Below, in pieces: positions 31,703-64,000 of a stretch of DNA of 64,000 nucleotides. Source of the stretch: Candidatus Accumulibacter sp. ACC003 (GTDB taxonomy: Bacteria > Pseudomonadota > Gammaproteobacteria > Burkholderiales > Rhodocyclaceae). The DNA lies in the NCBI RefSeq assembly GCF_907163085.1, contig NZ_CAJQTX010000011.1, positions 248,001 through 312,000 of the forward strand. The letters are read 5' to 3'. A model generated the notes under the pieces. It was given only the letters and a program-made list of their open reading frames with translations. It did no database searches and was not told where the DNA came from. Positions within the stretch are counted from its first letter, which is position 1. Every line of letters starts with the position of its first letter. The translations under genes and the position numbers were made by a program.

Positions 31703-32156
31703 GGGCAAGGTTCGCCTGGCGAGGGGCTGCGAAGAGCGCGCAGTATAGCAGAGCGGTGCAAAGGTCGGCCGGCGGCCGCGCGTTGCGCGTCGGTCTTCGT
31801 CGGCCATGCGCTTAATGTGAAAGTCGCGTACGCGACTCACGAATTTCCCTTCTCCCCACTGCGGGAGAAGGGCCGGGGTGAGGCGGGGAATTCAGGGAGC
31901 ATGCTCCCTGCCCGGCGAACGATTCCGGCGTGCAAGCCGGAATGCGCACTGCAAGTGAGAGGGAAACGGTCATGACTTTCATGATCTGGGCTATCTCAAC
32001 ATGTCATGGCCGTTAGCGCATGATTCCCGGCCCCGCGGCACTGCTGGCTTGACCATGGCTCAAGCAGCGGGCATGCTGGCAGCGCAGCAGCGAGTTCTGC
32101 GCGGCAGGGTCGCTGCCAGTAGCGGCTTCCTCAATCGATCAAGACAGGAGAAGCAG
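31703..32156. other. Intergenic region with three consecutive hairpins
   Basis: About 450 bases with no supported gene, between divergent MBL-hydrolase and metalloprotease genes. Within 31847-31943 are a 10-bp perfect stem (31847-31856/31863-31872), a 16-bp perfect palindrome (31894-31909) and an 8-bp stem (31922-31929/31936-31943). The first resembles GGGAGAAGGG-type hairpins seen between genes in many proteobacteria. The rest of the stretch shows nothing I recognise. Confidence 0.6.
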
Positions 32157-36062: not shown

Positions 36063-39000
36063 TCAGCGGTCGATCCTGATCTGCCAGCTGGGCAGTTCGG
36101 CGGGCTTCCTGTTCTTGCTGTGGCCGCCGAGGAACTCGGCCAGCCACTTGCTTGGCGAGACGACAGGGCCGCTGAAACATGCCGGTTTGGCACCGCTCCA
36201 GTCGATCTTCGCCGGCGGTGCGCTCTGCCCGCCGTGCTTGTTCTCGATGTGGCGTAAGTCGCTCGCCTGGCGAGCGGCGAGTGCAGCGGCGGCACCTGCG
36301 CCGCTGGCGACCTGGCAGATGCCGCTGGCGGGCGCGAAGCGCACCGTAAAACGCTGCTCGACGCGGCCACCGTGGCCGTCGTCGGCCTCGAGTCGGAAGG
36401 TATGGCTGCCGGCCTGGGGCGCAGCCCAGGCGAGCACGCCGCTGGCCGCATCGACGCGCGCGCCGGCTGGAGCGTCGAGCAGGCGGTAAGTCAGCGCATC
36501 ACCGTCTTCATCGCCGGCGCGCGCCCGGTAGACGAAGGGCCGTGACGCCAGCGTCAAGCCCCGGCCCTTGATCAGCGCGTCGTCGAAATCGCCTGCACCG
36601 CCAAAGAGCAGGTCTTCCCAGGCCAGAGTCAGGCTGCCGTCTGGCTGCAGCCTGACGCGCAGGTGGTCGGAGCGATCGGGATTAGCAGCCTGGATCGAGA
36701 AGAAGGCCAGCGGACCCCGGCCGATCGCGTTGGCCGCATTGTGGTTTTGCCATTGCGTCCGGCTGGCGTCCTGGACGAGGTAGAAAGCGACGTACTGCCC
36801 GCTGGGAAGAACCAGCGCGGCCTGCTCGCCCGGCCTGGCGTCGCTGGCGAAGACGAGCGTGGCGCGGCTATCGGCGAGCGCCGCGGCGGCATAGCCGGCA
36901 TCGCCCGGAAGCCGATTGCCGATGCGGCCGTCGGCGTCGTCGACCCGGTACACGCCGATTTCGTTGGCGTACGCGGCGCGGCGAATCGTCCAGCTGAAGG
37001 AAAGCGTGGTGGCCGTACCGGCCGTGCCGGCGACCGTGAAAACGCTCGCTGGCAGGCCGTCGTGCACATCGAACGAAGTCGGCGGCGTCGTCTGCCACTG
37101 CGGCGGGTGCTTGGCCGGCGTGATCGTCAGATAGACGCTTGCCGTCGCCGTCAGCGTGCCGTCGGAGACCGTGAAAGTGAAGCGGTCGCTGCCGCTGAAG
37201 CGCGCCTGCGGGACGTAGGTCCAGGTCCCTTCGGAGTTGCGCGCGACGCTTCCGTGCGCGGCCGCGCCGAGCCGCCAGCTTAGCGTGTCGCCGTCGACGT
37301 CGCCGACCAGTGCCGCCAGATCGATGTCAACGCGGCTCCCCTGCGGCAGCGTCAAGTGCGCATCGCGCGCCAGTGGCGCGTCGTTGACCGGCCAGACGGT
37401 GACCGTTTGCTCGGCGCGGCGGCTGGCGTGCGCCTGATTGGCCTGCTCGGTCGTCGTGGCGAGCACCGTCAGCACGAAGCGGCCGTGCGCGTCGGGGGGC
37501 GGCGTGAAGTACAGTTGCTCGAGATTCCAGCCGCTGATATCGACGCGGCCGCTGCCCTCCCCATGGTGCTCATCGGCGGCGTCGCCGGTGGCGGTGAAGC
37601 GCTTGCTTCCATCGCTCAGCGTGGCACCCGCCGGCAGACCGCTGATGACAATCGCCAGCGTCTCCGAGCCGTCGGTATCGAGCAGCGCGGCGTCGATCGC
37701 CGGCAGGCGGATAGCGGTGTCTTCGTCGCCGCTGGCGGTCGGCAGCGTTTCGCTGAGCGCGATGTCGTCGATCATCAGGCCGCTGTCCCTGATCGGCCTG
37801 GGCGTCGCCTCGGCGGCGATGCGCAGCGTCTGCGTGCCGCCGCTAGCGATGAACTGAACGCTATAGGTCTGCCAGGCAAGCCCCTCGATCGGGCTGGGGC
37901 TGGCGACGGAAGCGATCGGCTGCCCATCGACCATGATCCCGACGCGCGCCTGCTCGGCGCCGTAGCCGGGCACGCCAGCCAGGTCGAAAGACAGCGTGTA
38001 GCGCGCGCCAGCGACGGTTTCGAGCTTGCGCTCGATGGCCTGCGTCGGGTAGCGGCTACCGCCGGCGTAGGTCAGTTGCAACCAGTAGAAACCATTGCCA
38101 GGCGCCGCGGCGATCGCTCGCGGCCGGCCAGTGGCATCGGCAATAAGGTTGCCGGTGTGCCAGGCCTTGATGCCGCTGGCGGCACTGGCACTCGGCTCGC
38201 CGAGCAGCCGCCAGCCCTCGAGTTCGCCCGCCTTGACGAATGTCGCACCCGGCCAGGCGTTGCCGATGCTCTCCCAGCCGGTGCGAAAGACCTCGCGTGC
38301 CGCGGCCTCGGCGACCGACAGCTTCGGCGCGTCGGCCAGCGGCGTGACGACGAGCCGTACGGTGGCCACCGCCGAGCGTGCCTGGCCATCGTCGGCGAGG
38401 TAAGTGAAGGTGTCTTCGCCGCTCCAGTTGGCGTCCGGCGTGTAGATCAAGCGCTGCTCGTCGTCTCGCGTCAGTGTGCCGTGCGCCGCCGGGCTGACGA
38501 CGAGAACGCTCAGCGCGTCGCCGTCGACGTCGTCATCGTTGGCGAGCAGATCAAGGACGATGCGGTCGTCTTCGGCCAGCGTCGCGTCATCGTCGGCAGC
38601 GACCGGGGCATCGTTCACCGCCTTGACCGTGATCCGCAGCACGCTCTCGGTGCTCAGCTCGCCGTCACTGACACGCCAGACAAAGCTGTCCTGGCCATTG
38701 AAGTCTGGCGCCGGGCGGTAGCTGATCGTGCCGTCGGCCCAGCCGCTCAGTGTGCCGTGCTGGGGGCTCTCGGTGACAAACTGCAAGGCGTCGCCGTCGA
38801 CGTCGCTGGCGTCGGCGAGAAGGTCGAGCACGACCTCGCTGTCTTCGTCGAGCGCGACACTGCGCGCGACGATGGTCGGCGCGTCGTTGACCGGCGTGAC
38901 GGTCACGCTGACGGTGGCGACGGCGGACTCGACGCCGTCGCCGCGCAAGCGATACGTGAAGCGATCGTCGCCATACCAGTTGGCGTGCGGACGGTAGCTG

Positions 39001-42000
39001 AAGCGGCCGTCGGCGTCGACCGTCAGCTCGCCGTGCGCCGGGCCATCGACCACCACGGGCCAAACGCCGGGCCGATCGGCGCCGACGTCGTTGCTCACGA
39101 CATCGAGCGTCAGCGCCGTATCTTCAGCGGTGCTGGCGTTGTCGTCGTGCGCTTCGAGCACGGTGCTGGCGAGCTGCAGCTGAGTGATCGTGACCTGGCT
39201 GCTGCTCGCCGCGGCGCCGCGGCCAAAGCCGATCAGGTCGAAAACGAGGTTGACGACCGTGCCGGCGGCGATCCCGGCGAGGTCGACGACGATCGAGCGG
39301 CTGCCATCCGGGTGGCTGGTCATCGTCACGTCGTCGGCGAGGTAGGCGCGGCCATCGGCCTGCATATTGAGGATCGCGTCGCTGCCGGCCAGGCCGGTCG
39401 AGGCGAATAGCGACAGGCCGCTATTGGCATCGATCAGCGCGACCTCGAAAGCGTCGTCGGGGGCGGCGTTGGTGTCGTCGAGGGCGATGCCGCTCAAGGT
39501 GAAGGACAGCAAGCGGTCGTGGGCGCCGACGACGAAAGCCTGGTTGAGGCGGGTCTGCGTCGCTGCACTTTCCTTGAGCGTCGCGCTGCCCTGGGCAAAG
39601 CGCACGTCGCCGGTGGTCGACCAGCCGCTGCCGTCGCTGAAGCTTGCGTTCTCCAGTGTGAGATTGGCGGCGATGTCGAATTGAGCGACGCCCGAACGCT
39701 CGTCGTCGCTCCTCCAGGGCGTCGGATCCGATTGGCGGAGGCGGCTGCTGCGCACGCTAGCCAGAGAACGGCTCAGCGGCAGCGGCGCGCCGGGCGGCGT
39801 CGACGGGTCGTAAGGGAGCGGCACCGATCCGGTGCCGAGGAGCAGGCCACCCAGAGCAGCGGCTTCGCCGGCAGACGGCAGACGACGGACGCCGGGAAGC
39901 AGCGTCGACGCCATCAGGTCGTGACTGTTGGCGCTGTGCTCCAGACCAACGACATGGCCGTATTCGTGCAACAGGACGGTAAGCATGTCCATCCGGCCGT
40001 CGGCTTCCGACCCGGGCCTGGCGATCCACTCCAGCGGGTCGCTGGTGGGGAGGAATTCGGCGTTGTCGGTCGGCGTGAGGTCGATGAACCAACCGTAACC
40101 CGCGGCGGTGGGGGAGAGGGTGATGGTGGCGTTTTGGGACTCAACGGCGGTGTAGCCCACTGCCGCAGAAGGGAGGTCCGTAAAGCGGACGATGGTCTCA
40201 GCGCTATTCCTTTGCGATGCAGCCGAGGATTCGACAACAGAAATTGGCCAGTACAGCTTGGGGCAGTACTTACGGCCGATTTTTTCGCCCAGAGTAAGGT
40301 AGTCCTCGTAGCTCTCTCTCGTGACCTTCAGGTGATACCGTAGTTCTAATTCAACTGAGTCCTTGGTTCGCTGGTCAACCCCCGTAACAACAACAGTAAC
40401 CTCGTCTACGCCGACATAGTTTCTGTCAGGTTCGTATCGCAAGTCGTTGATGGTCTTGTGGGCCTTATACTCAACCAGCTTGCCGTGCTTGGGTGACTTA
40501 ACAACGGCAAATGCATTTTTATAGATATTCAGGTCGGGTCGGCTCGGGTGGTCGAAAAGACCAATGTCACTTGCTGCTGTGCTAATATCGAGTTCGTAGA
40601 ATACGCTGCCGTGTCGCGCGTGATCCCATGCAGCTCGGGTTGATGGCATAAATCTACATAGACCATAAGTGGCACGAATATCGGCCTCGTCGTCCCCTTG
40701 AAAATTCGTGGAGCCAGCATGCCTTTGTTGTACGGCCTGCGCGTCAGCGTAGATACTAAATGCTAGGTCGACAGGCGGCAGGTAGATCATTTTGCTCCCC
40801 CCTTCGTGATCCGAGAGTGTGGTCGTCGATTGCTCGAAAAACCTTGTTCTATTGATGATGGGCTCGGACGGCAAGTTCGATTTCAAATCGTCAGGTGCCA
40901 CAAGGCGTCGGGCGCTTCCATTTTCAATTTGCGTCAGCGTGCGTTTGTTCAGAATAATGCCGATGTAGTCCTCGTAGCCACGTGCATTGCTGGCTACGAG
41001 TCCTAATCTGTCGAGCGCCGAACGCATGCTTTCATAAGGATTACCTTCCGCATATGCCTTGTTGCTAAACTCGTTGAAGTATTTCCATCTGTCCTTCGCA
41101 CCCGCTTGGCCTGCTCCGTTAACGGCTTTGGTGACTTCGAGATATTTTGCTTCGCTATAGGCGCCGAACAATCCTACTGAATCTGCTTTGTTATTTATAT
41201 TTCTTTTATTCCAATACCACCCGGCTGAATAAGCTGCAACGCCAATGTTGCTAGCAATCAATTCATGGTTTTTGGCCACGGACGTGCTTGACGGTAAATC
41301 AATCTTGGGTTTGTTTTCCAAAAACTCGATGAAGCCATCATAGACATCAGATCCGGTCAGTTGGATGAGTCCTCGCCCGATGTAGTCCCATATTTTTTTA
41401 CTATCCCTAGTATACCCTGAAGCACCATTTCCGTAGTCCGTAGAGTAGACGCGATTGGCAAAGGCCTTCTCGTAGTTGATCCACGCATCCTGGCTGCTTC
41501 CTGCCGCGGGGAGGTTGTCGTCGATGTAGGCCTTGGCATTTTCGTCAGCGTTCCGCCCTTTTTCGCGATACTTATCATTAACGGCACCCTCGGCTGCGCT
41601 GTATGTGAATGACGCAGTAAATAATCGGCTCACCCTTGTAGCATTTCTATGCCTTAGGTCCTCGCGCAAAGTGGTAAAGCTGGTTTCCTGTTTTGACTGT
41701 GCCAGGAAGGCTGCAATGCGCTGCGGCGTGTTGATACTGAATTCGTTCCAGGCGTACTCTATCAACGCTGGGGCTATGCCACTAATAGTGCCTTTGCCCA
41801 ACGCGGCTTGGTCGAGTTTTGCGCCAATATTCAGGCCCAGACCACCTAGTCTCACATCGGCAGCGGCTATAAGACCTTTGTCTTGTGTGCCATTTCCGAA
41901 TAGGGCGTATTGAATGCGCTTCTTCTCGGCGGCGCTTGTTCCTGATTGTACGCTCGTTCCAATCTCTTCCCAAGAGCCGTTTGCTGCGACATCATCTGCC

Positions 42001-45000: not shown

Positions 45001-48000
45001 TGCCGCGCGCCCTGTTCGTCTTTCCAGCTCTCAGAGCTGGCTTTGCCGAGCGGGTCGACGGTCAGCCGATCTGGTGAGATCCACACCCTGAGTGCCACCG
45101 GCTGCGCCGGCATTCCTGCGGCCGTGTTGGGCTGCAACTGCTCGAGCGTTAGCCGCAGCTTGCCCGAGCTGAGCACCTGGACCGCGCTGATCCGGGGTGA
45201 CGACGCATCGTCGGCGTTCGGCGAGGCGCCATTGGCTGATTCGATGGTCAGCGTCAGGTCGCCGTCGGCGATAGTCTTCTGCACCGGAACGACCTGGTAC
45301 ACGCCGCCAGAGTCTACGCAAATGGCGAATACATCGGACAGCCCGGCGAGGCTGCCTATGAGCCCGCTGGCCGCGCTGGCTCCCGACAGCCCGTTGCCCG
45401 CCAGGCCGCCGGACATCGATATGGCCAGCGAATCCATCATCAGCGCAAAAACATTGATCGCCGAGCCGCGCACAGTGACGGCGCCGGTCTGGCTGTTGAT
45501 GGCGCTCTTGACGCACAGCAGATCGCCGGAGGCGCTGATGCCGCTATACGGCGGGCTGGCGGTGCGGGCGACGAGTTGGCCGTCGGCGTTGGTGCCGACG
45601 AAGCCGTTGTCGACCAGCCACCAGATGTCGTGCAGCTGGCCGTTGACGTCGGGCGCCGTACCGCGCCGCAGGAAAAGGACTTCGTCGCCGACCTGAACGC
45701 CGGCGTCGTCCTGCAGCGTGATCGCCAGCTGGACGGGCAGGGTGCTGTTCTCTTCGCCGATCTCGAGGTGGAAGGCGGCGAGAGCTTGCACGATTGCCGG
45801 AGCTGGTGCGGCGAGGCCGGTCGCCGCTTCGATGTTCGCCAGCTCGATCCGCCGGATGCTGACTAGCGCGTCCGCAGGCAAGGCGCCGGCACCAATCATC
45901 ACCGTTTCGCCGGAAGCCGCCTGGACGACGCCACCCTGGTCGGCGGCGATCTGGATCCCGGCGGGCGTCGCGGTCAACGGGTCGTCGTCGGTGAACTGCG
46001 CGGCCTGGACGCTGAGCCGGATGTTGGTCTGGCCGATCGCTTGTTGGCTGAGCTCGCCGTAGTCGTCGACGACGCTCGCCAGATGGACGATCGACAGTGT
46101 CACCTCGCCGGCGCGCAGGGCGCTGATCAGGCCGTCGGCGCTGACCGTCGCGACGCTGGCGTCGGAGACGAAATAACGCGTGCCGCTGTAGACCGCCGGC
46201 GCGGCCGGGATCAGCACTTCGAAGTCCTCGCCGGTGTCCGGGTCGGTGTAGGTTTCGAGCGCCTCCGGAGTGCCGGCGAAGACCGTCTGGCGCGCGTTGT
46301 GGATGTCGATCGGCTGATCGCTGTAGGCGTCGAGGACGTGCACCTTTAACTGTCGCGAGTCGCCGGGAGTCAGCGTTAGCGTCCCGGGGTAGACGTCGGG
46401 CTCGATGGTCGCGGCTTCTTCGTCGGCATAGTTTGAGTAGTCGCTTTCGTCATCGGCGGCGACGTCGAATGGCAGGGGCGCGGCGCGGACGTTCGTTGCC
46501 GCGACGGCCTGGATCAGGCGACCGTCGGCGTGCACGCGCTGGACGATGAGTAGCGCCGGACCGCTGCCGGTGGCGTGGACGAGGTCGCGCGAATCGTCGA
46601 TGCGCAGCGGCATTGGCGCCGTCGCGCCGAGCGTGCCGAGGTCGGCGGCGCTGAGCGTCAGATACGCGTCGTCGGTGATGACGACGCCCAGCTCGTCGGC
46701 GAAGTCGGCGGTGGCGTGCAGCTTCGTGAATTGGCCACTGGCCAGCGTTGGCAGTAGCGCGAGCTGCAGTTGCAGCAAGCTGGCAGCGCTGACGCGTATC
46801 GTCAGTTCGATCGCGGCGCCGGCGGTGAAGCCGTCGTCGGCCTGCAGCGTAACGTTCGCTTCGCCGCTGTAGCCGTCAGCCGGCCTGAAGAGCAGCGTCT
46901 GGCCGTCGGCGGCCAGGCGGGCGTCGCCGTGCGTGCTGCCGAGGATGCGCCAAAAAATCGGGTCGCCTTCGCGGTCTTCGGCGATGCCGCTCAGCGCGCG
47001 GCGGCTGGCGAGTCCGGCGTGCGTCGTGATCGGCGCGCGGCTGTCGGTCGCGACGGGCGCCTGGTTGGCGCGGAAGCCGCTATTGGCGTAGAGCAGTTGG
47101 CGGTCGTGGCTGTCGATCGCACCGTCACCGTCAAGGTCGGCGAGAGTGTTGTTCGCATCGTGCGCGGCCTCGGCTTCCTGCCACGCCTGGCTGTCGATGC
47201 CGTCGACGACGCCGTCGTGATTGACGTCGCCGGCGACGCTGAGGCGCAGTTCGGCATCGCCGACGCCGCGCAGGCGAATGAGTTTGACGCCCGCTTCGCC
47301 GACGCGCAGCAGGCGCGTCACGCGGCCATGGACACTCGCCGTGCCGATCAGCTGCGCGCCGACGACTTCGAGCTCGCCGTCGAGCGGCAGCGTCGTTTCG
47401 AGAGCGATGATTACGGCGCCTGGCGATCCCGGCGTGTGGGCGGTAGACGCCAGCTCGCTGGCGCGGACAGTAAAGGCGATATTGACCGACGCGTCGGCGC
47501 TCAGCGTGCCGCTCCATGTCGCGCCGCCACCACCGCCACCGTCGCTACCCTCGTTCCAGCTCGCGATCGCGCCGAGATTGGCGGTCAGCGCGTCGCTTAG
47601 CGGCTGGCCGGCGGCGTCGTAGGCGATCGGTGTTCCGAGATCGGCGTCGTCGAGTCGGCGGACCACGATCAGCCGGCCGGCGCTGTCGTAGCGGTACGAC
47701 AGCGTGCTGGCGTCGTTGCCGCCGGGCCCAATTGGGAAAGTGATCCGCAGGATGCGGCCGGCGCTGTCGCGCTGGAAGTCGATGCGTTCGCTGACGTCGC
47801 CGCCGACTGCGGCAATGCCGGCGTCCGACACCACGCACATCCGGCCGTCGGCGAAACGCACGCTGTTTATCGTTCCCTGTGCGTCGAGCGTGTAGCGGCT
47901 GCCGTCGGGAGAGGTCAAGGTGTAAGCCGTTGGCACCCACGGCAGGCCGCTGAGCTGTTCGTAAAGGCGATCGCCCTGGCGCTGGAGATTGTCGGCCGCC

Positions 48001-53700: not shown

Positions 53701-56700
53701 GCCGTCGGGTCGAAGACGTCGATTCCCTGGCCCGACGAAACGTAGATTTCGCCGTTACCCGGGTCGATCGCCAGTGCGTGCGTCAGCGGCTCGCCGCCGG
53801 GGCCCTGATGAGCTGCGATGATTGTGCCGCTGGCGGCGTCCACCTGCAGCAGTTCGGCGCCGCTGAGAACCCACAGCTGCCCCAGACGATCAAGCGCCAT
53901 GTCGGTGATCGGCGCAGCAAGGGTGAACAGCGGTGTGGCGCTGGCGAATCCGTTACCGACGCCGCTACCGCCTTGGCCGCCGACTTGGCCACCATCGTGG
54001 CCAACGTGAAAGACCTGCTTGCGCTCGCTGCCGGCGCTGAACATGAAGCTGTGGTCAGGCATCTCGAGCAGCGCTTGCGCGCCGATGTCGGCGTCGCTGG
54101 CGGCGTAGCCGGCGGCGAAACCGCGCAGCGAGAAGGGCGCAAGTACCGAGCGGAAATCGCTGGCCTGCACGCTGGCGACCAGCCCCGGCAGCTGTCGCGA
54201 CGCGTCGGCGAACAGTGCGTTGGCCGGATAAACGCGGTCGGCGGGTGCCTGCGGCGTTTCCGTAGTCGGCAGCAGGGACTGATTGACGCCGAGGGTGTCG
54301 AGAATTTCCTGGCGTGCGCCGTCGTCGGGCAGCACGGCCCTGGCCAGCGAAGCGGCCTCGCGATTGCCGGCGCGATCGATGGCGACGGCGAGGAACTCGT
54401 AGTGCTTGTTGCTGCCAGCATCGCCGACGAAAATCGCCTGCGCCACCGTCGGGTCGACCTGGCGCTGCCAGATGCGGAAGTCGCCGCCGTCTTCGGCGAC
54501 GTAGAGCGTCACCGATTTGACGCCGCTGCCGACGCCGCCAAGGCTGTCGCGATCGTCGGCTTGCCAGCGCAGGTCGAAAGTCGGCGCGCCGTCGGTGTTG
54601 TCGCCGAGCGCGGTGACCGCCAGCGTCGTTCGCGGTGCGCTGGCGTCGAGCCTGACGAGCGTGCTGTCGCTGTCGATCGGCGGCGCCTGGTCAAGGATCA
54701 AGCGCGCGCTGGCCGCAATGTCGACGCCCGAGAGCGCGTCGTCGGCGGCGATGACGGTGTAGCTGACGAAGCCACGCCGCAACTCGGCGCTGGCCTGGCC
54801 GGCGCTGCCGGTGAGCAGGCCGCGCGTCGCGTCGCGCAGCAGCTCGCCGGTCTGTGGGTCGATCGCTTGCAGCAGCCAGGTGGCGATCCGCGTCGACACG
54901 TCGACGCCGGCGCTGACGCGCAGGACGAAGCCCTTGCTGGCGGTGAAATCGAAATCGCCCTGGAAGCTGCCGCGAGCCGCCGGCAGATGGACTTTGATGT
55001 CGCCGATCTGCAGGTCGCCGAGGCGGAACGAGCGCGCGTCGAGGCCGGCGTCGAGCTGGCCGAGCAGCCGCAGCTGTCCCACCGGCGTCTCGCCGGGGTT
55101 GCTGAAGTTGATCGTGTAGGGCAGTGGCGTCGCCGCTGGAACGGTCGCCTGGCCGTCTTCGCCGAGCGCCGCTTGCGGGCCCTGGACGCTGAGCAGCGCG
55201 GCGCTGCCGGTCGCCGCCGTTGTTGACTCGCTGGCCGCCTGCTGCAGATAGCGCGTCAGGTCCAGCGCCTGGCCGGGAAGAGGTTTGAAGTCGGCGTCGA
55301 GGACGCCGATGTGGCGCAGGTATTCGAGTTCGCTGATGCCGCCAGCAAAGACGTTGAAGTTGATGAAGTGCGTCGCCTGCGTCGCGTGCTGGTCGTAATC
55401 GGCCGGGTTGGCGAGCACCGGCACCGGGATTTCGACGTAGCCGGCGAGCGCCTGCCTGATTTCGAGATAGTCGATCGGCGCGGTCGTCGCCAGTGGGTCG
55501 CCGGCGCGCGCAGCGCTATCGCCGTACCACTTCTGGACGGTGGCGAAGAAACCGAGCAGGTCGCCCTGGCTGCGATAAGTCTCGCCGCCATGCGCGAGCA
55601 GGATGCCGCTGGCCAGCGTGCTGCTCAGGCTGATCATTTTGGCGTTGGCGCGGATCGGTGGCGCTTCGTCGAGCGGCCGCAGATAGCCGGCCGATTCGAG
55701 CGCCGCCAGCCAGCCGGCGAGCCACTGCCCGAGGTCGGCGGCGAGCGCCGCCAGGCTCGCCGGCGCCGTCGTGTCGGCGAGGATGGCGGTGCGCAACCGG
55801 GCGGCGTGCGCGATCTGTTCGGCGATGAATTCGTCGCGCGTCAGCGGCGTCGCCGCGCCGGCCAGGTTGAAGCGGAAAGGCATCGCCAGAGCTTCGATGT
55901 CGAGCAGATGTTCTTGCGGCACGCGCGACATGAACTTCTTCGCCAGTCCGTTGGCGATCCGGTCGAGATCCTCGGGGCCGCCGTCGAGCAGCCCCAGTTC
56001 CTGCCATTCGGGGTGCAGCGCGTAGAGCTTGCCGCGCAAGCCGTCGAAATCCCAGGCCTGCCATTCGGCCAGTCCCGGGTAGGTCTGGACCGTGAAGCTC
56101 ATGCCGACGTAGCCGCCAGCCGCCAGGTCGAGCGCGTAGCCCGGCAACAGCGTCACGCCGGCGGTGTTCAGTGCCGCGTCGAGGCTCGCCCAGGGGACGT
56201 CGGCGCGGGCCGTGCCGCTGGTCGGCGTTGGGCCGTAGGTCTGCGTGTTGCCGGCGCTGTCGAGCGTCGCGCCGTCGGGCTGGCCGGCGACGTTGCCGCC
56301 GACGACCAGATACGGTAGCGCGAGTCCGTTGAGCAGCTCAGCGCTGTAACCGAGTTCGGGGACGCCGAGGTCGAAACGCACGTAGGGCGTGTCGACGTTG
56401 CTCAGACTCTGCAGCGAGACGCTGTACAGGCCATTCTCGCCAGGGATCAGGCTGCGCGGGCCGCCGATGCCGATCGTCACGTCGGCCTCGACGCCGCGCT
56501 CGACGAGAAAACGCTGCGCTTCGGTGACGCGCTGGCCGTCGGGATTGATCACGCTCAGGTCGTAGAGACCGAGTGGCAAGTTGCGCAGGTCGAAGACCGC
56601 GCGGATGCGCGTCGCGTCGAGCACTTGCCAGCGTTCGGGTTCGGCTTCGGCGACGCCGGGCTTGCTCAGCTTGACCAGCGCGCCGGGCTTGAAGTGTGCG

Positions 56701-59700
56701 CCGTCGATGTCGATGCTCAGCCAACGGTGTTGATCGTCACCGCGACCGCCCTGGTCGGGGCTGATACGCGTGATCGACAGGGGCAGCAGGTCGGCGCGCA
56801 GCGTCACCGGCGAATGGGTCGCGCCTTGGCGCGAGCGAACGAGAAGGTAGTAGTCGCCGGCCTGCGTGTTCGGCAACCACACTTCCTGGTCGGCCGACAG
56901 CGGCCGGTCGTAGGCGGCGTCGAAAGCGTAGCCGCTGGCGACGTCGCCGTAGCGCAGATAGAGTTCATTGGCGGCGTTACTGCCGTTGCTGCCATCATCG
57001 CCAGCGCCGTCGTGCGTCAGGCTGACGCGCAGCGTCTCGCCAGCGGCGACGGCGATCTTGTAGAGCCGCTCTTGCCCCGGGCTGAGGGTAGTGTGCAGCG
57101 GCGCACCGATGGCCATGGTCGGGACGCTGACCTGCAGCGTCGCGCCCGAGGCGCTGCGGTTGTTGGCCTCGCCAGGGGCGACGATGAGGCCGTTGCTGGT
57201 GTAGGTGATGGTGCCTTCGAAGACTTCGTTGTACAGGTCGGGCCGGACGATGACCCGCCAGCTGCCCTCGTGCAGCGGCGGCAGCGAAGCGTTCAAGTGG
57301 CCGTCGTAGCTGGCGTTGGCGCCGAGGCCGCCGACGCCAGCGAGGTGATCGACCTTGCCGAGCAGGACGTCGCCGAGGTCCCACTGGTTGTCAGCGGAGA
57401 GATAGAGCGCGTCGGTCCAGCGGCCCTGCGCCGGGTTGCTCGAGACATTGCTGATCGTGTAGTCGATGCGGATGGCGTCGCCGACGCTGGCGCTGGCGGG
57501 CAGCAAGACCTGGCTGACGACCAGGTCGGCGGGCGGCGGAATCTCGATCAGCAGCGGTTGCGGCGCGGCGCTGGCGTTGTTCTGCTCGCGGCCGAATTCA
57601 CGCACCTGGCCGTATTCGCCGCTGCCCCAGGCGTACGCCGGGTCGCTGACGACGAAGACGTAGTACGCGCCGGCGAGCTGTGCTGGCGCGCTGACGCTGA
57701 GGCTGGCGTCGTAGCTGCCGCCGGCGAGCAGGCCGCCACGATGTTCGACGTAGCCCAGATAGATGTCCTGCTTGAGGTCCAGGAAGCGGTCGCGCGACAG
57801 GTAGAGCAGGTCTTGCCAGCGACCCTGATCACCGGGCGTGTCGCCGCCGGCGTTGACCACGCGGTAGCTGACGGTGAACGGCTGCCCGGCAAGCGCCGAG
57901 TCGGGGGCGATCACCTCGGCGACCTGCAGGTCGGGCGGCGTCGCCAGGCTGATCGCCAGCGGCGCCGCGGCGAGATTGTTGCCTTCGTCGGCGAATTCGA
58001 GAACCGAGCCGGCGAGGTCGCCATAGCGCGCCAGCGTCGGCAGGCCGTCACGGATGCCGCTGCGTTCATTGGTCGCCGGATTGGCGAAGACGACGGTGTC
58101 GGTCTTGACCAGAATATGGAAGTCGCCGCTGATCGATTCGGGCAGCGTGATGGTCGCCGACGCGCTATACGACTCGCCTGGCTTGAGCGATTGCCGCTGG
58201 CCGTCTTGCTGAATCTGGATGGCATGCGTCTTCAGCAGGTAATCGCCGTAGTCGAGCGACGCGTCGCGCGAGAGGTAGATGCCGTCGGTCCACTGGCTGT
58301 TGCGCGTTTCCCGGCTGCCACGATTGCTGACGCGCCAGCTGACCGTCAGCGACTGTCCGGACCACGCCGCGGCTTCGGAAATGACGACTTCGTCGATCTG
58401 CAGATCGGGCTCACGGTAGCTGACGCTGAGCGCTGCGCGGCTGATGTTGTTGTCGTTGCGGGCGCCTTCGAAGACGCTTCCCGGCTGGCCGTTGCTGCCG
58501 GCGTACCAGGCGGTGGCACCGTTCTGGTCGCCGCCCGGCCACAGTTCCTGGCGAGCGCGGCGCATTTGCGGGTCGCCGCTGTCGCGTTCGGCGTCGGTGA
58601 TCACGTAGACGTAATACGGACCGTCGGCGCCAACCGGTAAGCGCAGCCTGGTCGAAGTCGTGTAGCTGGCGTTGGCGGCGAGACCGCCGACGTTGGCGTG
58701 CGTGACGCTGCCGAGCGCGATCGCGCGTTCGGCGATGAAGGCCGCGTCGCGGCTGAGGTAGATGCTGTCGACCCAACTGCGCGTACCGGCCCAGACGGCG
58801 GCGCCGAAATTTTTGACGGTCCAGCTGAGAGTCGTTTCCTCGCCCGAGAAATTATTGGCCTCGGTGCTGATTGCGGTGACCTGCAGGTCGGCGGCGGACG
58901 CGCTCACCAGCGACGCGCTGCTGCGCGCGTTGTTGCTTTCGTTGCTTTCGCTGACGCGTGCCTGCGCGTCGCTGCGGACGATCAGGTAATTGCCGCTGAC
59001 CGACGGCGCGAGTTGCAGCGTCTGGCTGACCGAGTAGCGCTCGCCGAAACCGAGCGTTCGGGTCTGGCCGAAGTCGGCGATGTGCCAGAGCGTGTGGGCG
59101 CTGTTCCAGTCGGCGCTGTCGGCGAGATAGACCGAATCGGTCCAGCTGCCGGTGAAGGCGTCGCCGCGGTTCTCAACGCTGTAGCTGAAGCTGTAGCCGC
59201 CGCCGTCGCCAGCATCGGCGCTCGCCTGCGGGACGAGCTCGCTGACCAGCAGGTCGGGCGGCGTGACGCCGAGGACGCTGATCGGCCGCGCCCGGTAGTT
59301 GTTGTTGTCGACCTGGTTCGGGTCGTCAGGATTGACCTGCGTCGCCAGCGTGTCTTCGAGGATGAGGTCGTAGGTGTCGCTCCAGACGGTGACGAAGTAC
59401 TCGCCCGAACGCAGCGTGTCGGGGAGGACGACGCGGGCGTCGCCGAGGTAGCTGTCGCCGACGGCGAGGTGGCCGACGTGGGTGAAGGAGCCGAGAACGA
59501 TATCGCCCTTGTAGGCGCCGGGTCGCCGCCGGTCGCGCGCCAGCCAGATGGTATCGGTCCAGCTGTTGAGCGCTGCCGACTCGCCGCGCGTCGTCTGGCT
59601 GCCGTTGTTGGCGACGCGATAGCGGACGTCGATGCGGGCGCCGTGCACGCCCTGGTCGGGGGCGACGACGTCGCTGACGACGAGGTCGGCAAAGGGCAGC

Positions 59701-62700
59701 GGGTCTACGGTGAAACGCGTCGCGCGCGCGTTGTTCGCTTCGTTCGGATACTCGTCGACGCGCTGCTGGCCGTCGGCGACGACGATCAGGTAGGCGTCGC
59801 CGCGCATGCGCAGCGGGATGTCGAAGGGCGCGCTCTCGCCGGCGTAGCTTTCGCCGGGCGCCAGCGCGCTGGCGTTGGCGATCTCGCCGAGCAGGCGGTC
59901 GTCGGCGCTGAGCGTGGCGTCCAGCGACAGGTAGACCTGGTCGGTCCAGCGGCCGCTGGCGATGGCCGCGCCGAGGTTGCTGATGGTGTAGCGGATGGCG
60001 GTGGCGGTGCCGGCGCCGACGTGCTCGGCGACGGTGGCGCTGGTGACGCGCAGGTCGGGGCGATCGTTGAGGGCGATGGCGGTCGTCGTCGCGGCGAGCA
60101 GCGTGTTGTTGGTCCGCGCCGCGCCGTGCTCGTAGATCTGCTCGCCGCCGTTGCCGAGCATGGCGTTGCTGATCACCTTGAGCCGGTAGAGGCCTTCGAT
60201 TTTCGGCGGCAGACGCAACTGCTCGGTGCGCGTGTAGCGCGTGCCGGCGGCCAGGCTGCGATCGTTGCTGAAGCTACCGAGGGCGATGGCGCTGGCGTTG
60301 CCGCTGGCGGCTTGCAGCCAGACGCTGTCGACCCACACGCCGACGGCGTCGGCGTCGCCCTGGTTGACGACAGTCCACGAGACGTCGATCAGCGCGCCTT
60401 CTTGGGCGCTGGCCGGCGCGGCTATGGCCTCGACCAGCAGGTCGGGCGAGCGCGAGAGCGCTACCGGCAGCGCCAGCGAGTGGCCACTGTTGTTGGTGGT
60501 ATAGACGAACTCGAAGGGGCCACCGGTGCGCACGTTGAGATAGTGCGTGCCGCTGATTCCCGCCGGCAGTGTCACCTCGATGCGGCGAGCGTAGCGGTCG
60601 CCGACGGCCAGCTGGCCGAGGTGACGCGCCGCGGCGAACTGCGCGACGACGCCGCTGCCGTCGGCGTTGCGGCTCAGCCAGACTTCGTCCGACCACTCGC
60701 TGGTGTTGGTGCTGCCGATCCCCTGATTGACGACTTCCCAGCTCAGCGTCAAGGGCCGACCACTCGCCGGCTCGCCGTCGACGGTCAGCGCCGCGACCTG
60801 CAGGTCGGCGTAGGCGACGGGCATGACGTCGACGCTGTGCGGCAGGCGCGCGACGTTGTTGAGCTCCGAGTGGTTCTCGAAAACTTCGCCGCGCGCGTCG
60901 CTGACGACGAACAGCTGCCAGCGCTCGCTGCTGCGCGCGGCGAGAACGATCTGCTCGGCGCGGCTGTACGACTCGCCGGCCGCCAGCGCGCCGTCGTGCC
61001 GGTACTCGCCGACGATGCGGTCGTCGGCGTTGCCGATGACGTCGTCGCGCGAGAGCACGACGCGATCGACCCAGCTGGAGAACTGGCCAGCGCCGTTGCC
61101 CTGGTTGCTGACGGTCCAGGCGACGGCCAGCGTCGCCGGGTCGGCGATCAGCAGCGACGGCGCGCTGAGCTCGCTGACCGCCAGGTCGGCGTAGGGCGCG
61201 AGGGCTATCGCCAGCGGCGCGAGCGCGCGATTGTTGCTGCGCTGGCGGTCATCGAGCGCGTTGCCGCCGTCGCTGACGACGATCAGTTGGTAGTCGCCGG
61301 CGTAGTCGAGCGGGATCGCCACCTCGGCGCTGGCGGCGTAGCTGGCGCCGGTCGGCAGCGGACCCATGTGCGCGACCTCGGCGAACTTTTGCGAGACGCC
61401 GGCACGCGCCAGGAATACCTGGTCGGTCCAGCTGCCGAGCGCGACGCCGCCGTCGTTGCGCACCTGCCATTCGATCTGCAGCGTCGTTCCCGACAAGCTG
61501 CTCGCCGCCGCATTGAGCGTCGCCAGCGTCAGGTCGATGCGCGCGACGCTCAGCGCGTCGGCAGCGTACGCCTGGTTGTTGTCTTCGCCCTTGCGCTCGT
61601 AGAGCTTGTCGTCGGCATCGGCCTTGACCAGCCAGCGCCATTGGCCCTCGGGCAGCGACGCCGGCAGATTGAAGCTGGCGCTACGGCTGACGCTGCTGCC
61701 GGCGGCGAGCGGCGCGGTGTTGAAGACGCTGGCGACTTCGCGGCGCACGCCTGCGTCGTCCTCGAGATAGATGCGGTCGTACCAGGCGCCGGCGGTCGGC
61801 GCCGCACCGCTATTGTGCAGCGTGTAGCTGACGCTGGTCGCATCGCCCGGGCGCAGCGCGCTGGCTCCGAGAACGTCGCTGACGCGCAGGTCGGGAGTTG
61901 GCGTCAATTCGATGTGCAGCGGCGCCGCGCTGGCGCCGCTGTTGTTGGTCGTCAGCGCGCCCTCGTTGACGCGGCGATTGCTGTTGGTCTCGACGAGGAC
62001 GTAGTAGTCGCCGGCGATGTCGCGCGGCAGCGTCAGCGTCGCTTCGCGGTCGTACGCCTGGCCGGGCGCCAGCGCGCCGGCGTGCGCCAGCGAGCCGGCG
62101 AGGAGCAGATCGTCGGCGCTCACGGTGGCGTCCGACGAGAGCACGACACGGTCGTTCCACTGCGCCTGCATGGTCGTCGCGTTGCCGACGTCGCGCACCT
62201 CCCAGCTGATCGATACCTCGTCGCCGCTGCGCGCGCTGGCGGGTGCGTTGACGGCGGTCACCGCCAGATCGACGATCGGCGCCAATAGCTCGACCGGCAA
62301 GGCGCTGCTGAAATTGTCGCTGCCGGGGTCGGGCTCGGCTTCGGCGCCGCTGTCGGTGCGCACGCCGAGCGTGTAAGGCCCGGCGCCACGCAGCGGCATC
62401 TTGACCGACAGCTCTTGCGTGTAGCTTTCGTTGACGGCCAGGCCGCCGAGGTGGCGGAAGCTACCGATCACGACGTCGTCGGAATTGCCGAGAACCGCGT
62501 CCTTGCTGAACAGCAGCTGATCGCTCCAGGCGCCGCTGGCGTCTACCGCGCCGCGGTTGGCGACGCGCCAGCTGATCGTCGTCCACTCGCCGCCGACGGC
62601 GGTCGGCGACGTGTTCGCGGCCTCGACGCGCAGGTCGGGATACGCCTTGCTCGCCGAGTCGACTTCGACGCTGGCGCTGTTGTTGCTCTCGGCGTCGTTG

Positions 62701-64000
62701 TCGGCGTTGGTCTCGAAAACGGTGCCGACGCCAGCGCGGTTCTGGTCGGTGCTGACGCGAATCTCGATCCGGCCGCTACCCTTGTTGCCCTCGGGCAGCG
62801 TCAGGCTGAAGCGGCGCTGGCGTTGCTCGCCGGGCTGCAAGGCGCCGCCCGGGACGTCGCCAATGGCCAGCAGCGGGTCGAACGCCAGGTCGCTATCGAG
62901 CAGGATCTGGTCGGTATCGACGTTGCGGACGCGGATCCGCTCGATGAACAGCGCGTCGGTGGCACTGCCGCCGTCGTTCAGGGTCTCCCAGAAAATGTTC
63001 AACGCGCCGCCAGCGTGCAAGTCCGCCAAATCAGACGCTTCGGCGTGCAGGTTTCGCACGCGCAGGTCGGGACCGGTGACGCGCAAGACTTCGGCGCTGT
63101 TGTTGTTTTCGGCGGTGCCCGCCGGGTTGGCTTCGGCGACCTGCGCGTCGGCGTCGACGACGAGCCGCAGTGCGAAGCGGCCGGCGGCGTCAAGTCCCCG
63201 CGGCCAGAAAAACTCTGCACTGCCGGCACGGCTGGCGCCAGCAGCGAGCGGTGCGCTGCGGCTGAGCTCGACGCTGGCGACGAGCTTGCCGGTGTCGAGT
63301 TGCTGCAGTTCGAGGCGTTCGCGCCACGCGTCTTCGAGCGGCCGGGTACCGGCGTTGCGCGTTAGCCAGCTGGCGGTAACGCGCTGGCCGGGCTGCAAGG
63401 GACCGTCGGGAGTCAGCGTCAGCGCGTCGATCTGCAGGTCGACGTAGGGCGCCAGCGAAACGCTCAATGGCGCGGCCAGGCTATTGTTGCCGCGGCTGCG
63501 GTCGGCGAGGACGGCGTCGGCGTCGGTGACGACGAGCAGTTCGTAGGCGCCGACGAAGTCGAGCGGAATCAGCACGTCGGCGCTCGCACCATAGCTTGCG
63601 CCAGCGGCCAGCGGACCGCTGCGCGAGACCTCGGCCAACTGCCGCTCGACGCCATCGCGGATCACAAAGACGCGGTCCAGCCAGCTGTGCGCTTCCACGA
63701 CGCCGCCATTGCGCACGCTCCATTCGACGTGCAGCGTCGAGCCCGATTCGACGCTGTTGGCAAAGTCGAGGCTGCTGACGCCGAGGTCGCTGCGGCCAAC
63801 AACGACTGGCGCCGCGGATGCAGCATGGTTGTTGGCGGCTGTCGACTCGGCAATGGCGTCGTCGGCGTCGACGATCACCAACCAGCTGAACTGCCCTTCG
63901 GCGACGCCGACGGGCAGGGTAAATGCGACGTGCCGCGCTACCGTCGAGGCGACCGCCAGCGGCTCTGAAGCGACTACGCTCGCGACTTCGAGCAATCCGC
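50349..64000 (-). CDS. Giant CARDB-repeat surface protein, upstream part (partial at the window edge)
   Basis: The frame runs off the right edge; the first in-window start-like codon (63995, TTG) is internal. Domains from the N-terminal side: 17 complete CARDB units plus one partial unit (64000 to about 57121), a PPC-like domain (about 57105-56775), a TIG/IPT-like domain (about 56775-56500), an unassigned, partly helical region (about 56500-55100), an FN3/Ig-like domain (about 54650-54340), an NHL-like beta-propeller (about 54060-53240), a Big5-like domain (FDQPMWLG, about 53230-52850) and about five putative Ig domains (52470-50720). The last roughly 120 codons (50719-50349) are non-homologous tail sequence reading into the anomalous island. 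No catalytic domain is evident in this half. Probably an extracellular matrix or adhesion protein; the signal peptide, if any, lies outside the window. Confidence 0.8.
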   Translation of the reverse strand, partial: GLLEVASVVASEPLAVASTVARHVAFTLPVGVAEGQFSWLVIVDADDAIAESTAANNHAASAAPVVVGRSDLGVSSLDFANSVESGSTLHVEWSVRNGGVVEAHSWLDRVFVIRDGVERQLAEVSRSGPLAAGASYGASADVLIPLDFVGAYELLVVTDADAVLADRSRGNNSLAAPLSVSLAPYVDLQIDALTLTPDGPLQPGQRVTASWLTRNAGTRPLEDAWRERLELQQLDTGKLVASVELSRSAPLAAGASRAGSAEFFWPRGLDAAGRFALRLVVDADAQVAEANPAGTAENNNSAEVLRVTGPDLRVRNLHAEASDLADLHAGGALNIFWETLNDGGSATDALFIERIRVRNVDTDQILLDSDLAFDPLLAIGDVPGGALQPGEQRQRRFSLTLPEGNKGSGRIEIRVSTDQNRAGVGTVFETNADNDAESNNSASVEVDSASKAYPDLRVEAANTSPTAVGGEWTTISWRVANRGAVDASGAWSDQLLFSKDAVLGNSDDVVIGSFRHLGGLAVNESYTQELSVKMPLRGAGPYTLGVRTDSGAEAEPDPGSDNFSSALPVELLAPIVDLAVTAVNAPASARSGDEVSISWEVRDVGNATTMQAQWNDRVVLSSDATVSADDLLLAGSLAHAGALAPGQAYDREATLTLPRDIAGDYYVLVETNSNRRVNEGALTTNNSGASAAPLHIELTPTPDLRVSDVLGASALRPGDATSVSYTLHNSGAAPTAGAWYDRIYLEDDAGVRREVASVFNTAPLAAGSSVSRSASFNLPASLPEGQWRWLVKADADDKLYERKGEDNNQAYAADALSVARIDLTLATLNAAASSLSGTTLQIEWQVRNDGGVALGSWTDQVFLARAGVSQKFAEVAHMGPLPTGASYAASAEVAIPLDYAGDYQLIVVSDGGNALDDRQRSNNRALAPLAIALAPYADLAVSELSAPSLLIADPATLAVAWTVSNQGNGAGQFSSWVDRVVLSRDDVIGNADDRIVGEYRHDGALAAGESYSRAEQIVLAARSSERWQLFVVSDARGEVFENHSELNNVARLPHSVDVMPVAYADLQVAALTVDGEPASGRPLTLSWEVVNQGIGSTNTSEWSDEVWLSRNADGSGVVAQFAAARHLGQLAVGDRYARRIEVTLPAGISGTHYLNVRTGGPFEFVYTTNNSGHSLALPVALSRSPDLLVEAIAAPASAQEGALIDVSWTVVNQGDADAVGVWVDSVWLQAASGNASAIALGSFSNDRSLAAGTRYTRTEQLRLPPKIEGLYRLKVISNAMLGNGGEQIYEHGAARTNNTLLAATTTAIALNDRPDLRVTSATVAEHVGAGTATAIRYTISNLGAAIASGRWTDQVYLSLDATLSADDRLLGEIANASALAPGESYAGESAPFDIPLRMRGDAYLIVVADGQQRVDEYPNEANNARATRFTVDPLPFADLVVSDVVAPDQGVHGARIDVRYRVANNGSQTTRGESAALNSWTDTIWLARDRRRPGAYKGDIVLGSFTHVGHLAVGDSYLGDARVVLPDTLRSGEYFVTVWSDTYDLILEDTLATQVNPDDPNQVDNNNYRARPISVLGVTPPDLLVSELVPQASADAGDGGGYSFSYSVENRGDAFTGSWTDSVYLADSADWNSAHTLWHIADFGQTRTLGFGERYSVSQTLQLAPSVSGNYLIVRSDAQARVSESNESNNARSSASLVSASAADLQVTAISTEANNFSGEETTLSWTVKNFGAAVWAGTRSWVDSIYLSRDAAFIAERAIALGSVTHANVGGLAANASYTTSTRLRLPVGADGPYYVYVITDAERDSGDPQMRRARQELWPGGDQNGATAWYAGSNGQPGSVFEGARNDNNISRAALSVSYREPDLQIDEVVISEAAAWSGQSLTVSWRVSNRGSRETRNSQWTDGIYLSRDASLDYGDYLLKTHAIQIQQDGQRQSLKPGESYSASATITLPESISGDFHILVKTDTVVFANPATNERSGIRDGLPTLARYGDLAGSVLEFADEGNNLAAAPLAISLATPPDLQVAEVIAPDSALAGQPFTVSYRVVNAGGDTPGDQGRWQDLLYLSRDRFLDLKQDIYLGYVEHRGGLLAGGSYDASLSVSAPAQLAGAYYVFVVSDPAYAWGSGEYGQVREFGREQNNASAAPQPLLIEIPPPADLVVSQVLLPASASVGDAIRIDYTISNVSSNPAQGRWTDALYLSADNQWDLGDVLLGKVDHLAGVGGLGANASYDGHLNASLPPLHEGSWRVIVRPDLYNEVFEGTITYTSNGLIVAPGEANNRSASGATLQVSVPTMAIGAPLHTTLSPGQERLYKIAVAAGETLRVSLTHDGAGDDGSNGSNAANELYLRYGDVASGYAFDAAYDRPLSADQEVWLPNTQAGDYYLLVRSRQGATHSPVTLRADLLPLSITRISPDQGGRGDDQHRWLSIDIDGAHFKPGALVKLSKPGVAEAEPERWQVLDATRIRAVFDLRNLPLGLYDLSVINPDGQRVTEAQRFLVERGVEADVTIGIGGPRSLIPGENGLYSVSLQSLSNVDTPYVRFDLGVPELGYSAELLNGLALPYLVVGGNVAGQPDGATLDSAGNTQTYGPTPTSGTARADVPWASLDAALNTAGVTLLPGYALDLAAGGYVGMSFTVQTYPGLAEWQAWDFDGLRGKLYALHPEWQELGLLDGGPEDLDRIANGLAKKFMSRVPQEHLLDIEALAMPFRFNLAGAATPLTRDEFIAEQIAHAARLRTAILADTTAPASLAALAADLGQWLAGWLAALESAGYLRPLDEAPPIRANAKMISLSSTLASGILLAHGGETYRSQGDLLGFFATVQKWYGDSAARAGDPLATTAPIDYLEIRQALAGYVEIPVPVLANPADYDQHATQATHFINFNVFAGGISELEYLRHIGVLDADFKPLPGQALDLTRYLQQAASESTTAATGSAALLSVQGPQAALGEDGQATVPAATPLPYTINFSNPGETPVGQLRLLGQLDAGLDARSFRLGDLQIGDIKVHLPAARGSFQGDFDFTASKGFVLRVSAGVDVSTRIATWLLQAIDPQTGELLRDATRGLLTGSAGQASAELRRGFVSYTVIAADDALSGVDIAASARLILDQAPPIDSDSTLVRLDASAPRTTLAVTALGDNTDGAPTFDLRWQADDRDSLGGVGSGVKSVTLYVAEDGGDFRIWQRQVDPTVAQAIFVGDAGSNKHYEFLAVAIDRAGNREAASLARAVLPDDGARQEILDTLGVNQSLLPTTETPQAPADRVYPANALFADASRQLPGLVASVQASDFRSVLAPFSLRGFAAGYAASDADIGAQALLEMPDHSFMFSAGSERKQVFHVGHDGGQVGGQGGSGVGNGFASATPLFTLAAPITDMALDRLGQLWVLSGAELLQVDAASGTIIAAHQGPGGEPLTHALAIDPGNGEIYVSSGQGIDVFDPTAELASRAWRHFSNQRVGDLAFAPDGRLWGVKWTGSEIVGAQLHASSEIISFALEGRYAGRAELEFKLAGEIDSIAFGANATPLAGLLFASSTLRQRARTSDIEATPQQSPLWMIELASRQTLQLAEGGTRGESVVATADGRILVAQTTRIDEIARYRAPQVKAVTIADGALLALPINQIGVVFDQPMWLGAQASAAAGERHDALDAHSVLNPVNFTLTALGDNAGAQLAPQAIRWDAATYTAWLAVDGLAAGEYQLTIANTLQSSSEIPLPASYSSRFTALLDMSSELQLEFTNTRANRATGEITYDVSVTNVGSDEIRGPLLLLLDPGQYFADLIADAQRGDAAQAELWTIDLSAALQALGGKLAGGATIAGQTVRLTPGSELARRAGLAELVKGNVGHGVYALPQENAPPILRIAEVFGDAFVDAFDKPFDDAELPLATVGEVWTATVEAVDSDGERFWWQLVEAPVGVTLTPAATIESAEDGQHAQATLAWTPTASADADSRVVVRVQDSRGGAALRRFRLLVIGGQHAPVIDPIADHTLAEGETLSLPLLAADADGDALTLSIRKLPPGASFDAASGVLSWTPGFDQAGIWDGITVIASDGTHTASESFTITVDQGYAPPTLAALAVQQLREGDSWSLQLVAGVAGSAAGSMQPDGTTLSIEYGARWLPGGATLDAETGWFAWTPAFDQHGSYRVPVIVVAKWTTLGGETKRTSLSRDIVLEVANANGAPFFHTAETWHVLEGQPLRINVFAFDPDHPEFAASIRPRADAEAIGAEGRAPTLDYQLDGLPAGASFDAETLEILWTPGYTQAGSYRLELTASDDGDGSATPATSQLPLSIVVSNANRAPQIASLGKALVDAGEIVEIPFSVSDDDGNPLAVTISGLPRFATWTQTTDSDSLAGRVDGRIHFAPGAGDRGDYTITVSASDDGDGDATQVLGTARSFIVGVRSVSEAPQITAPRQVVALVGEPLSVALVARDLDQDPLTWRAGALGGVAAPAVRARDVGPAGVGRAHRMSHTRHPSQPPSVQLERNRTQTPDPHHQGLTTGSPLLPRSRPGNPSRSPAVASSRPPRSTSACLASVRIPVACGNGQPLADTRGRRHHRVTPASKKRI
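50720..52470 (-). repeat. Tandem putative Ig (He_PIG-like) domains
   Basis: About five successive domains with the pattern D-x-D-x-D-x-L, L-P-x-G-A-[ST]-[FL]-[DN], T-G-x-[LF]-x-W-T-P and G-x-Y-x-[LIV]-x-[LIV]-x-[AV]-x-D-[DG]. The last unit is cut off at about 50719, and a matching half-unit opens the coding on the far side of the island at about 49300. Confidence 0.7.
57121..64000 (-). repeat. Array of 18 CARDB-type repeats (one partial)
   Basis: Units of roughly 105-165 residues. Each begins with a [PA]DLxV strand, contains W-x-D-x-[IV]-[WYF]-L in the middle and G-x-Y-x-[LFI]-x-V-x-[ST]-D near the end, and closes with NN followed by a short linker. This is the pattern of CARDB, the cell-adhesion-related domain found in bacteria. 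Units differ clearly from one another, so the array is old, except for one closely related block duplication. Confidence 0.85.
61200..61740 (-). repeat. Copy A of a two-unit CARDB block (matches about 63445-63995)
   Basis: CARDB units 7-8 here are more similar to units 1-2 at about 63445-63995 than to their neighbours. Shared features include LPEGQWRWLVKADAD versus VAEGQFSWLVIVDAD, MGPLPTGASYAASAEVAIPL versus SGPLAAGASYGASADVLIPL, and LAPYADLAV versus LAPYVDLQI. Similarity is also clear at the DNA level. This implies duplication of a block spanning about six repeats. Confidence 0.65.

Follow-up and report, generated by a model that had tools for sequence, protein, structure and literature searches.

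The window analysed here, a stretch of 64,000 nucleotides (C11:248001-312000) of a 5.39-Mb genome of Candidatus Accumulibacter in 13 contigs, carries on its minus strand two very long open frames of the same phase, on either side of a 1.4-kb gap. In the open-frame list of the window, the downstream frame (36063-49085 from its first TTG) encodes 4,340 aa, or 4,415 aa when counted from stop to stop, and the upstream frame extends from 50349 to the end of the window, where it is still open after 4,549 aa. On the contig the upstream frame continues to C11:324505, 12.5 kb past the window, where a likely ATG opens it; 69 residues in lies a LEPR-XLL motif (C11:324248-324316; NF012209, above cut-off). 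The original prediction had recognized these two same-strand, same-frame giant open frames, which are indeed present and bear Pfam domains, and had read them as one gene of roughly 8,800 codons or more that appeared split in two. Since the upstream frame reaches so far beyond the window, this size has to be raised: the distance from C11:324505 to the stop at 36063 is 13,481 codons with the intervening stretch included as given, and ~13,300 codons once ~323 codons of the relatives stand in for the gap. Open frames that run to thousands of codons and bear Pfam domains do not arise by chance. TCA-cycle genes lie to one side of the gene, and to the other lies a copper-type RND pump. Upstream of the giant gene there are copper-efflux HlyD and outer-membrane genes; we weighed these as a possible exporter of its product but dismissed them, given that an RND pump (ACR_tran) and a CusF domain accompany them. 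A separate gene of 420 aa with weak Peptidase_M10 and Astacin matches lies at 32001-33260, ~2.8 kb from the 3' end of the giant gene.

Within the window the giant gene can be followed as two clean pieces. The upstream, N-terminal piece (50715..64000, minus strand, as are all features of the window given below) is open throughout, belongs to the frame that exceeds the NF012209 cut-off and is similar to all 12 relatives fetched; the downstream, C-terminal piece (36063..49292) is open to the stop codon and has no start of its own. It begins within a truncated He_PIG (Ig) domain (49077..49256; PF05345 positions 34-95 of 96), the first start-type codon being found 75 codons in, and the similarity of the upstream frame to the relatives is lost ~35 residues into an Ig-like repeat; both observations agree with the prediction that one frame opens and the other ends inside an Ig-type domain. 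Pfam matches in the window part comprise CARDB, He_PIG, Big_9, cadherin-like, dockerin and DUF4114. The CARDB repeat array occupies approximately 57072..63998 (PF07705, 354.8 bits, in 8 separate stretches that each pass on their own), a dockerin type I-like calcium repeat lies at 47091..47234 (PF00404, 29.4 bits, cut-off 22.9), the HExxHxxGxxH zinc site of an M10-type protease domain at 39936..39968 (PF00413, 31.2 bits, cut-off 24), part of a cadherin-like/Big_9 (tandem-95) array at 38343..38918 (PF17963, PF17892, PF17803; NF012211) and DUF4114 near the C terminus at 36567..36809 (PF13448). PPC scores 24.8 bits in the window part, against a cut-off of 25.9, and 41.3 bits in the N-terminal part outside the window. 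Of what had been predicted, CARDB (8 stretches, for 18 predicted units) and the Ig and cadherin-like arrays were recovered, the internal protease is supported by the M10-type site, and one stretch of the predicted dockerin-like pair passes the cut-off. The two predicted beta-propellers were not established; their profiles reach 20-23 bits for a cut-off of 305, which is only a hint.

A muralytic module had also been proposed, and here the databases disagree: PHROGs and PDB sequences back it, whereas a Pfam search of the module returned no match. The module (40851..41885) is GH19-like, matching phrog_181 at an E-value of 2.4e-25 and PDB endolysin sequences at ~1e-6; the PDB search returned 8 chains, the endolysins among them at 2e-6 to 2e-5, and its top chain is titled EF-hand domain-containing protein. 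Glu-67, which we take to be catalytic, and a GRG motif at residues 170-172 are invariant in 12 aligned modules. A fold model of the module (pLDDT 45.9) was too poor to use. The family to which the module is related in sequence, and with which it shares the invariant Glu and GRG motif, is that of the phage GH19-type endolysins (phrog_181), which are free enzymes, whereas here the module forms part of a giant protein. It also shows faster evolution, with 22-37% identity as compared with 53-58% (five closest matches) for the 340 residues before it. The G+C content of the module is lower than that of its flanks in this genome, and the relatives measured agree in 11 of 11 cases; recent acquisition of the cassette by this genome alone was therefore rejected. 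The low-G+C region (40200-42300) is perhaps an old phage-derived piece that has kept its own composition.

The N terminus of the giant matches NF012209 (LEPR-XLL) at 31.7 bits for a cut-off of 17. Judged by this match, the giant is a further LEPR-XLL member, of a family already named. The domain combination, which the original prediction did not know from a described system, is not unique to this genome either: a contig search with an alignment found 55 loci that bear homologues of a 749-aa stretch, those of Azonexus, Thauera, Methylobacter and planctomycetes among them (the window's own peptide, used as the query of a contig search, found no relative). With the LEPR-XLL giants (NF012209, LEPR-8K) the protein shares the N-terminal motif above cut-off and its very long, repeat-built architecture; it differs in that an endolysin module and an M10-type site are set within its rod, features whose presence in other members was examined among close homologues. 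Its long Ig and cadherin-like repeats also recall the RTX and BapA-LapF type I adhesins, with a weak match to NF045619 (36.7 bits, cut-off 180), but a search of this genome for TIGR03661, the C-terminal type I secretion target domain, gave no match, and the giant has a LEPR-XLL leader instead. Giant genes are reportedly also the subject of a preprint on predatory bacteria (Omnitrophota). From its domains, the product would be a rod built of CARDB, Ig and cadherin-like repeats, into which a module that cuts cell walls and a metalloprotease site are set, and we would assign it putative adhesive and wall-cutting roles; it is presumably a very long exported protein of the cell surface or matrix.

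We analysed the status of the junction by comparison with relatives. A single open frame crosses it in 12 of 12 fetched relatives (G001, G005, G009, G013, G014, G016, G017, G018, G022, G023, G025 and G027), with 335-353 codons between the flanks; four further genomes were left out of this set: G015, in which both flank matches fall in one 5,067-aa frame and the upstream flank is only partly covered, G024, in which the gene is split over contigs, G006, with the downstream flank only, and G011, with a more distant paralogue. Full frames of 12,557 aa (G018), 12,769 aa (G016) and 12,896 aa (G022) were found among the relatives. The proposal that both halves belong to one giant gene is thus borne out, and two separate orthologous genes, the arrangement that would have contradicted it, were seen in none of the 12. 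Clean similarity to the relatives stops at ~50715 and resumes at 49292, leaving a stretch (49293..50714) that lies opposite ~323 codons of Ig-like domains in the relatives and has, as given, stops in every frame. No coding signal is detected in it: the best coding score per 300-base window ranges from -0.06 to -0.62, compared with +0.64 and +0.49 at the two sides. Inside it, however, tblastn with the spacer proteins of the relatives revealed a collinear remnant, an island at 49837..49969 that is read in two successive frames and matches, in the expected order, the corresponding part of the spacer (residues ~190-234). At its best the match reaches 84% over 19 residues (E 2.2e-5), and among the matches listed the island was found with G018, G009, G022, G016, G013, G027, G017, G005 and G001, at E-values from 2e-5 to 0.13. 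A frame-tolerant alignment of the gap, which also recovers the island, scores 111 against a profile of the 12 sequences; 25 shuffles average 49 and reach at most 62, the reversed and the reverse-complemented gap score 51 and 49, and the reversed profile gives 43. Inspected by eye, the alignment is convincing only in the island, ~130 nt out of 1.4 kb, and the rest of its path resembles filler. On either side of the gap, ~8,600 codons before it and ~4,410 after it are free of any stop or frameshift. A collinear, frame-scrambled remnant amid clean codons points to a corrupted consensus and not to a spacer: the 1.4 kb, which the original prediction had taken for non-coding, is very probably corrupted coding sequence, and the gene, which it had described as apparently split, is probably not split in the cell.

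Three readings of the gap were weighed. In the one we prefer, a single LEPR-XLL giant gene of ~13,300 codons lies for the most part within the window, and its apparent split would be a local sequence error, in the form of an unpolished or badly gap-filled consensus, and not a break in the cell. The damage is dense and confined to 1.4 kb, which fits a bad consensus better than decay, and the second giant on contig C3 (see below) bears a frameshift at a homopolymer run of T, which is what an imperfect consensus would give. Against this reading, the frame of the giant gene is broken at other places in 3 of the 12 relatives, which are drafts as well: inside the downstream flank in G001, inside the upstream flank in G014 and, to judge from frame lengths, upstream of the flanks in G009; breaks in this gene are thus not rare in draft data. 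The gap measures 1,422 bases as against ~969 in the relatives, and the ~450 extra bases are awkwardly explained by error alone. This excess length, together with the stops in every frame, is what a real break in the strain would account for, in which a recent lesion, insertion or rearrangement destroyed the 1.4 kb and left a truncated protein of 8,600 codons; there is room for a recent lesion since the relatives are only 49-72% identical to the giant around the junction. We nonetheless regard it as improbable, because scattered damage within 1.4 kb amid ~13,000 clean codons is unlike the decay of a pseudogene, because the remnants are collinear, neither deleted nor displaced, and because the stretch found no strong match when searched against the rest of the genome. 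A mobile insertion as the cause of the gap was rejected on these last two grounds. If instead the two frames were independent genes, the 1.4 kb would supply a start and a promoter to the second; the non-coding-like composition of the stretch agrees with this, yet no start is found near the opening of the downstream frame, which lies inside an Ig domain, and the 12 fetched relatives all have one frame; we consider this very improbable indeed. We put the probability that the preferred reading and the LEPR-XLL identity hold jointly at roughly 0.85, one gene with an artefactual split being, taken by itself, a little more secure. The split is very probably not biology, and to report it as a case of natural gene fission would be a mistake.

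Two further LEPR-XLL giants are encoded in the genome, arranged in tandem on contig C3 (C3:25370-62146 and 62653-95161; loci L016 and L011-L014). They measure 12,258 aa and ~10,800 aa, the latter across the frameshift near 81437, match NF012209 at 25.8 and 32.5 bits (cut-off 17) and have C-terminal ends that are alike. Directly before them, on the same strand (L016:2441-10000), lies an operon that encodes an HlyD protein, a PqqD-M50-like-HlyD protein, an accessory SecA, an HlyD adaptor and a small membrane-type protein that matches no family. Thus the two sister giants are beside an accessory SecA machine, whereas the window gene is not. A secondary SecA_DEAD/HlyD/Peptidase_M50/GAF locus, with which the C3 operon shares its HlyD protein, PqqD-M50-like-HlyD protein, accessory SecA and HlyD adaptor, has been described, its role being called "completely unknown" (Kamneva et al. 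2015, PMC4452313). The text of that paper, figures and supplements aside, does not contain the words giant, LEPR, cadherin, DUF4347 or large protein and names no giant or LEPR-XLL partner of the locus; the legend of its Fig. 3 mentions neighbours of >1,000 aa. A literature search, mostly of the starts of abstracts, found no paper linking LEPR-XLL with the accessory SecA locus.

We surveyed 397 genomes of the phylum for accessory SecA (E 1e-115 or better) and for LEPR-XLL over its cut-off. Accessory SecA is present in 26 genomes and LEPR-XLL in 39: 25 have both, one has SecA only (G171), 14 have LEPR-XLL only and 357 have neither (Fisher p 1.4e-28, a value that ignores kinship). Counted by genus (n=232), the numbers are 13, 1, 13 and 205 in the same order (p 2.1e-13). 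Among the genomes with a LEPR-XLL frame of >6,000 aa, 17 of 18 have accessory SecA, compared with 8 of the 21 other LEPR-XLL genomes; the exception is G477, a 1.9-Mb single-contig genome with a 13,848-aa LEPR-XLL frame (C1:429854), in which accessory SecA was not detected. The longest open frame met with a LEPR-XLL match has 19,427 aa (G155; match at C115:112865-112924). As a control, TIGR03661 was found in 82 of the 397 genomes, namely in 3 of the 26 with accessory SecA and in 79 of the 371 without it (p 0.32); RTX adhesins carrying this domain are not associated with accessory SecA. Within the genus of the window (n=28), 17 genomes have both, one has SecA only (G006), two have LEPR-XLL only (G011, G019) and 8 have neither, the 47% SecA of G002 being taken as accessory. 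In the single-contig Accumulibacter genome G010, an accessory SecA remnant with two stops (C1:2223591-2224154) is accompanied by no LEPR-XLL match; machine and family look lost together there. Looked at from the side of the giant, 28 of 34 genomes with a homologue of it have accessory SecA by a reading of scores, and the 6 without it include three cyanobacteria; these genomes were drawn from the 55 loci, 13 Accumulibacter loci and 8 others being left out.

The association is also one of position. For 20 of 32 accessory SecA genes, a LEPR-XLL frame lies within 25 kb on the same contig; one has its nearest LEPR-XLL frame at 67 kb, and for the other 11 the contig, in several cases a short one, holds no LEPR-XLL frame. 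In 12 of the 32 loci the giant ends 3.8-5.0 kb upstream of SecA on the same strand, with HlyD and M50-like genes between. The order HlyD protein, PqqD-M50-HlyD protein, SecA is kept in 18 of 18 fetched loci, 15 of which also have the HlyD adaptor; these loci, chosen for having both genes, are 17 of the 20 linked ones plus that of G016. This demonstrates a genomic linkage of the accessory SecA locus with LEPR-XLL giants.

The N termini of the giants bear on how they leave the cell. Between the start and the LEPR-XLL motif, the highest 17-residue hydropathy is 0.61-0.94 across the three giants; thus no classical Sec signal is apparent. Among the neighbours scanned, no ABC exporter was seen beside any of the three. 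In the mechanism that we favour, and hold to be somewhat more probable than its alternatives, LEPR-XLL giants are exported by the accessory SecA/HlyD/PqqD-M50/HlyD machine: in place of an ordinary Sec signal peptide, the LEPR-XLL leader would be recognized by the machine encoded on C3, which would act in trans on the window giant and thread it through both membranes. In its most general form, which we judge to stand at even odds, the locus would be a dedicated export machine for proteins of ~6,000 to 19,000 residues that are targeted to it by the LEPR-XLL leader; it would define a SecA-driven, type I-like two-membrane pathway in which the M50-type membrane protein stands in for the ABC transporter or SecYEG, rods bearing endolysin and protease modules being among the substrates. 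What runs counter to such export are the place of the window gene, which is not beside the machine, the genomes in which LEPR-XLL occurs without accessory SecA (14 of the 397 surveyed, or 14 of the 39 with LEPR-XLL, G477 with its 13,848-aa frame among them) and the 6 of 34 that have a homologue of the giant and no accessory SecA. The same genomes speak for an explanation by which the giants are ordinary adhesins of type I (ABC) secretion and their association with accessory SecA reflects shared ancestry or island transfer only, and linkage is, moreover, not function. Such an origin seems to us rather unlikely, though it deserves to be taken seriously: TIGR03661 is absent from this genome and unassociated with accessory SecA in the survey, the association of SecA with LEPR-XLL persists at the level of the genus, and the gene order is conserved.

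An orphan locus, described in 2015 as completely unknown in its role, is now tied genomically to the LEPR-XLL giants, which often are the gene directly upstream of it in the same direction. If this tie is functional, it would provide the orphan machine with a class of substrates and the LEPR-XLL motif with a function, and the export of a chain of >10,000 residues would become testable by the deletion of a single gene. Accumulibacter is a phosphorus-removing organism of wastewater that grows in flocs and granules, and the LEPR-XLL giants are candidate matrix proteins in it.
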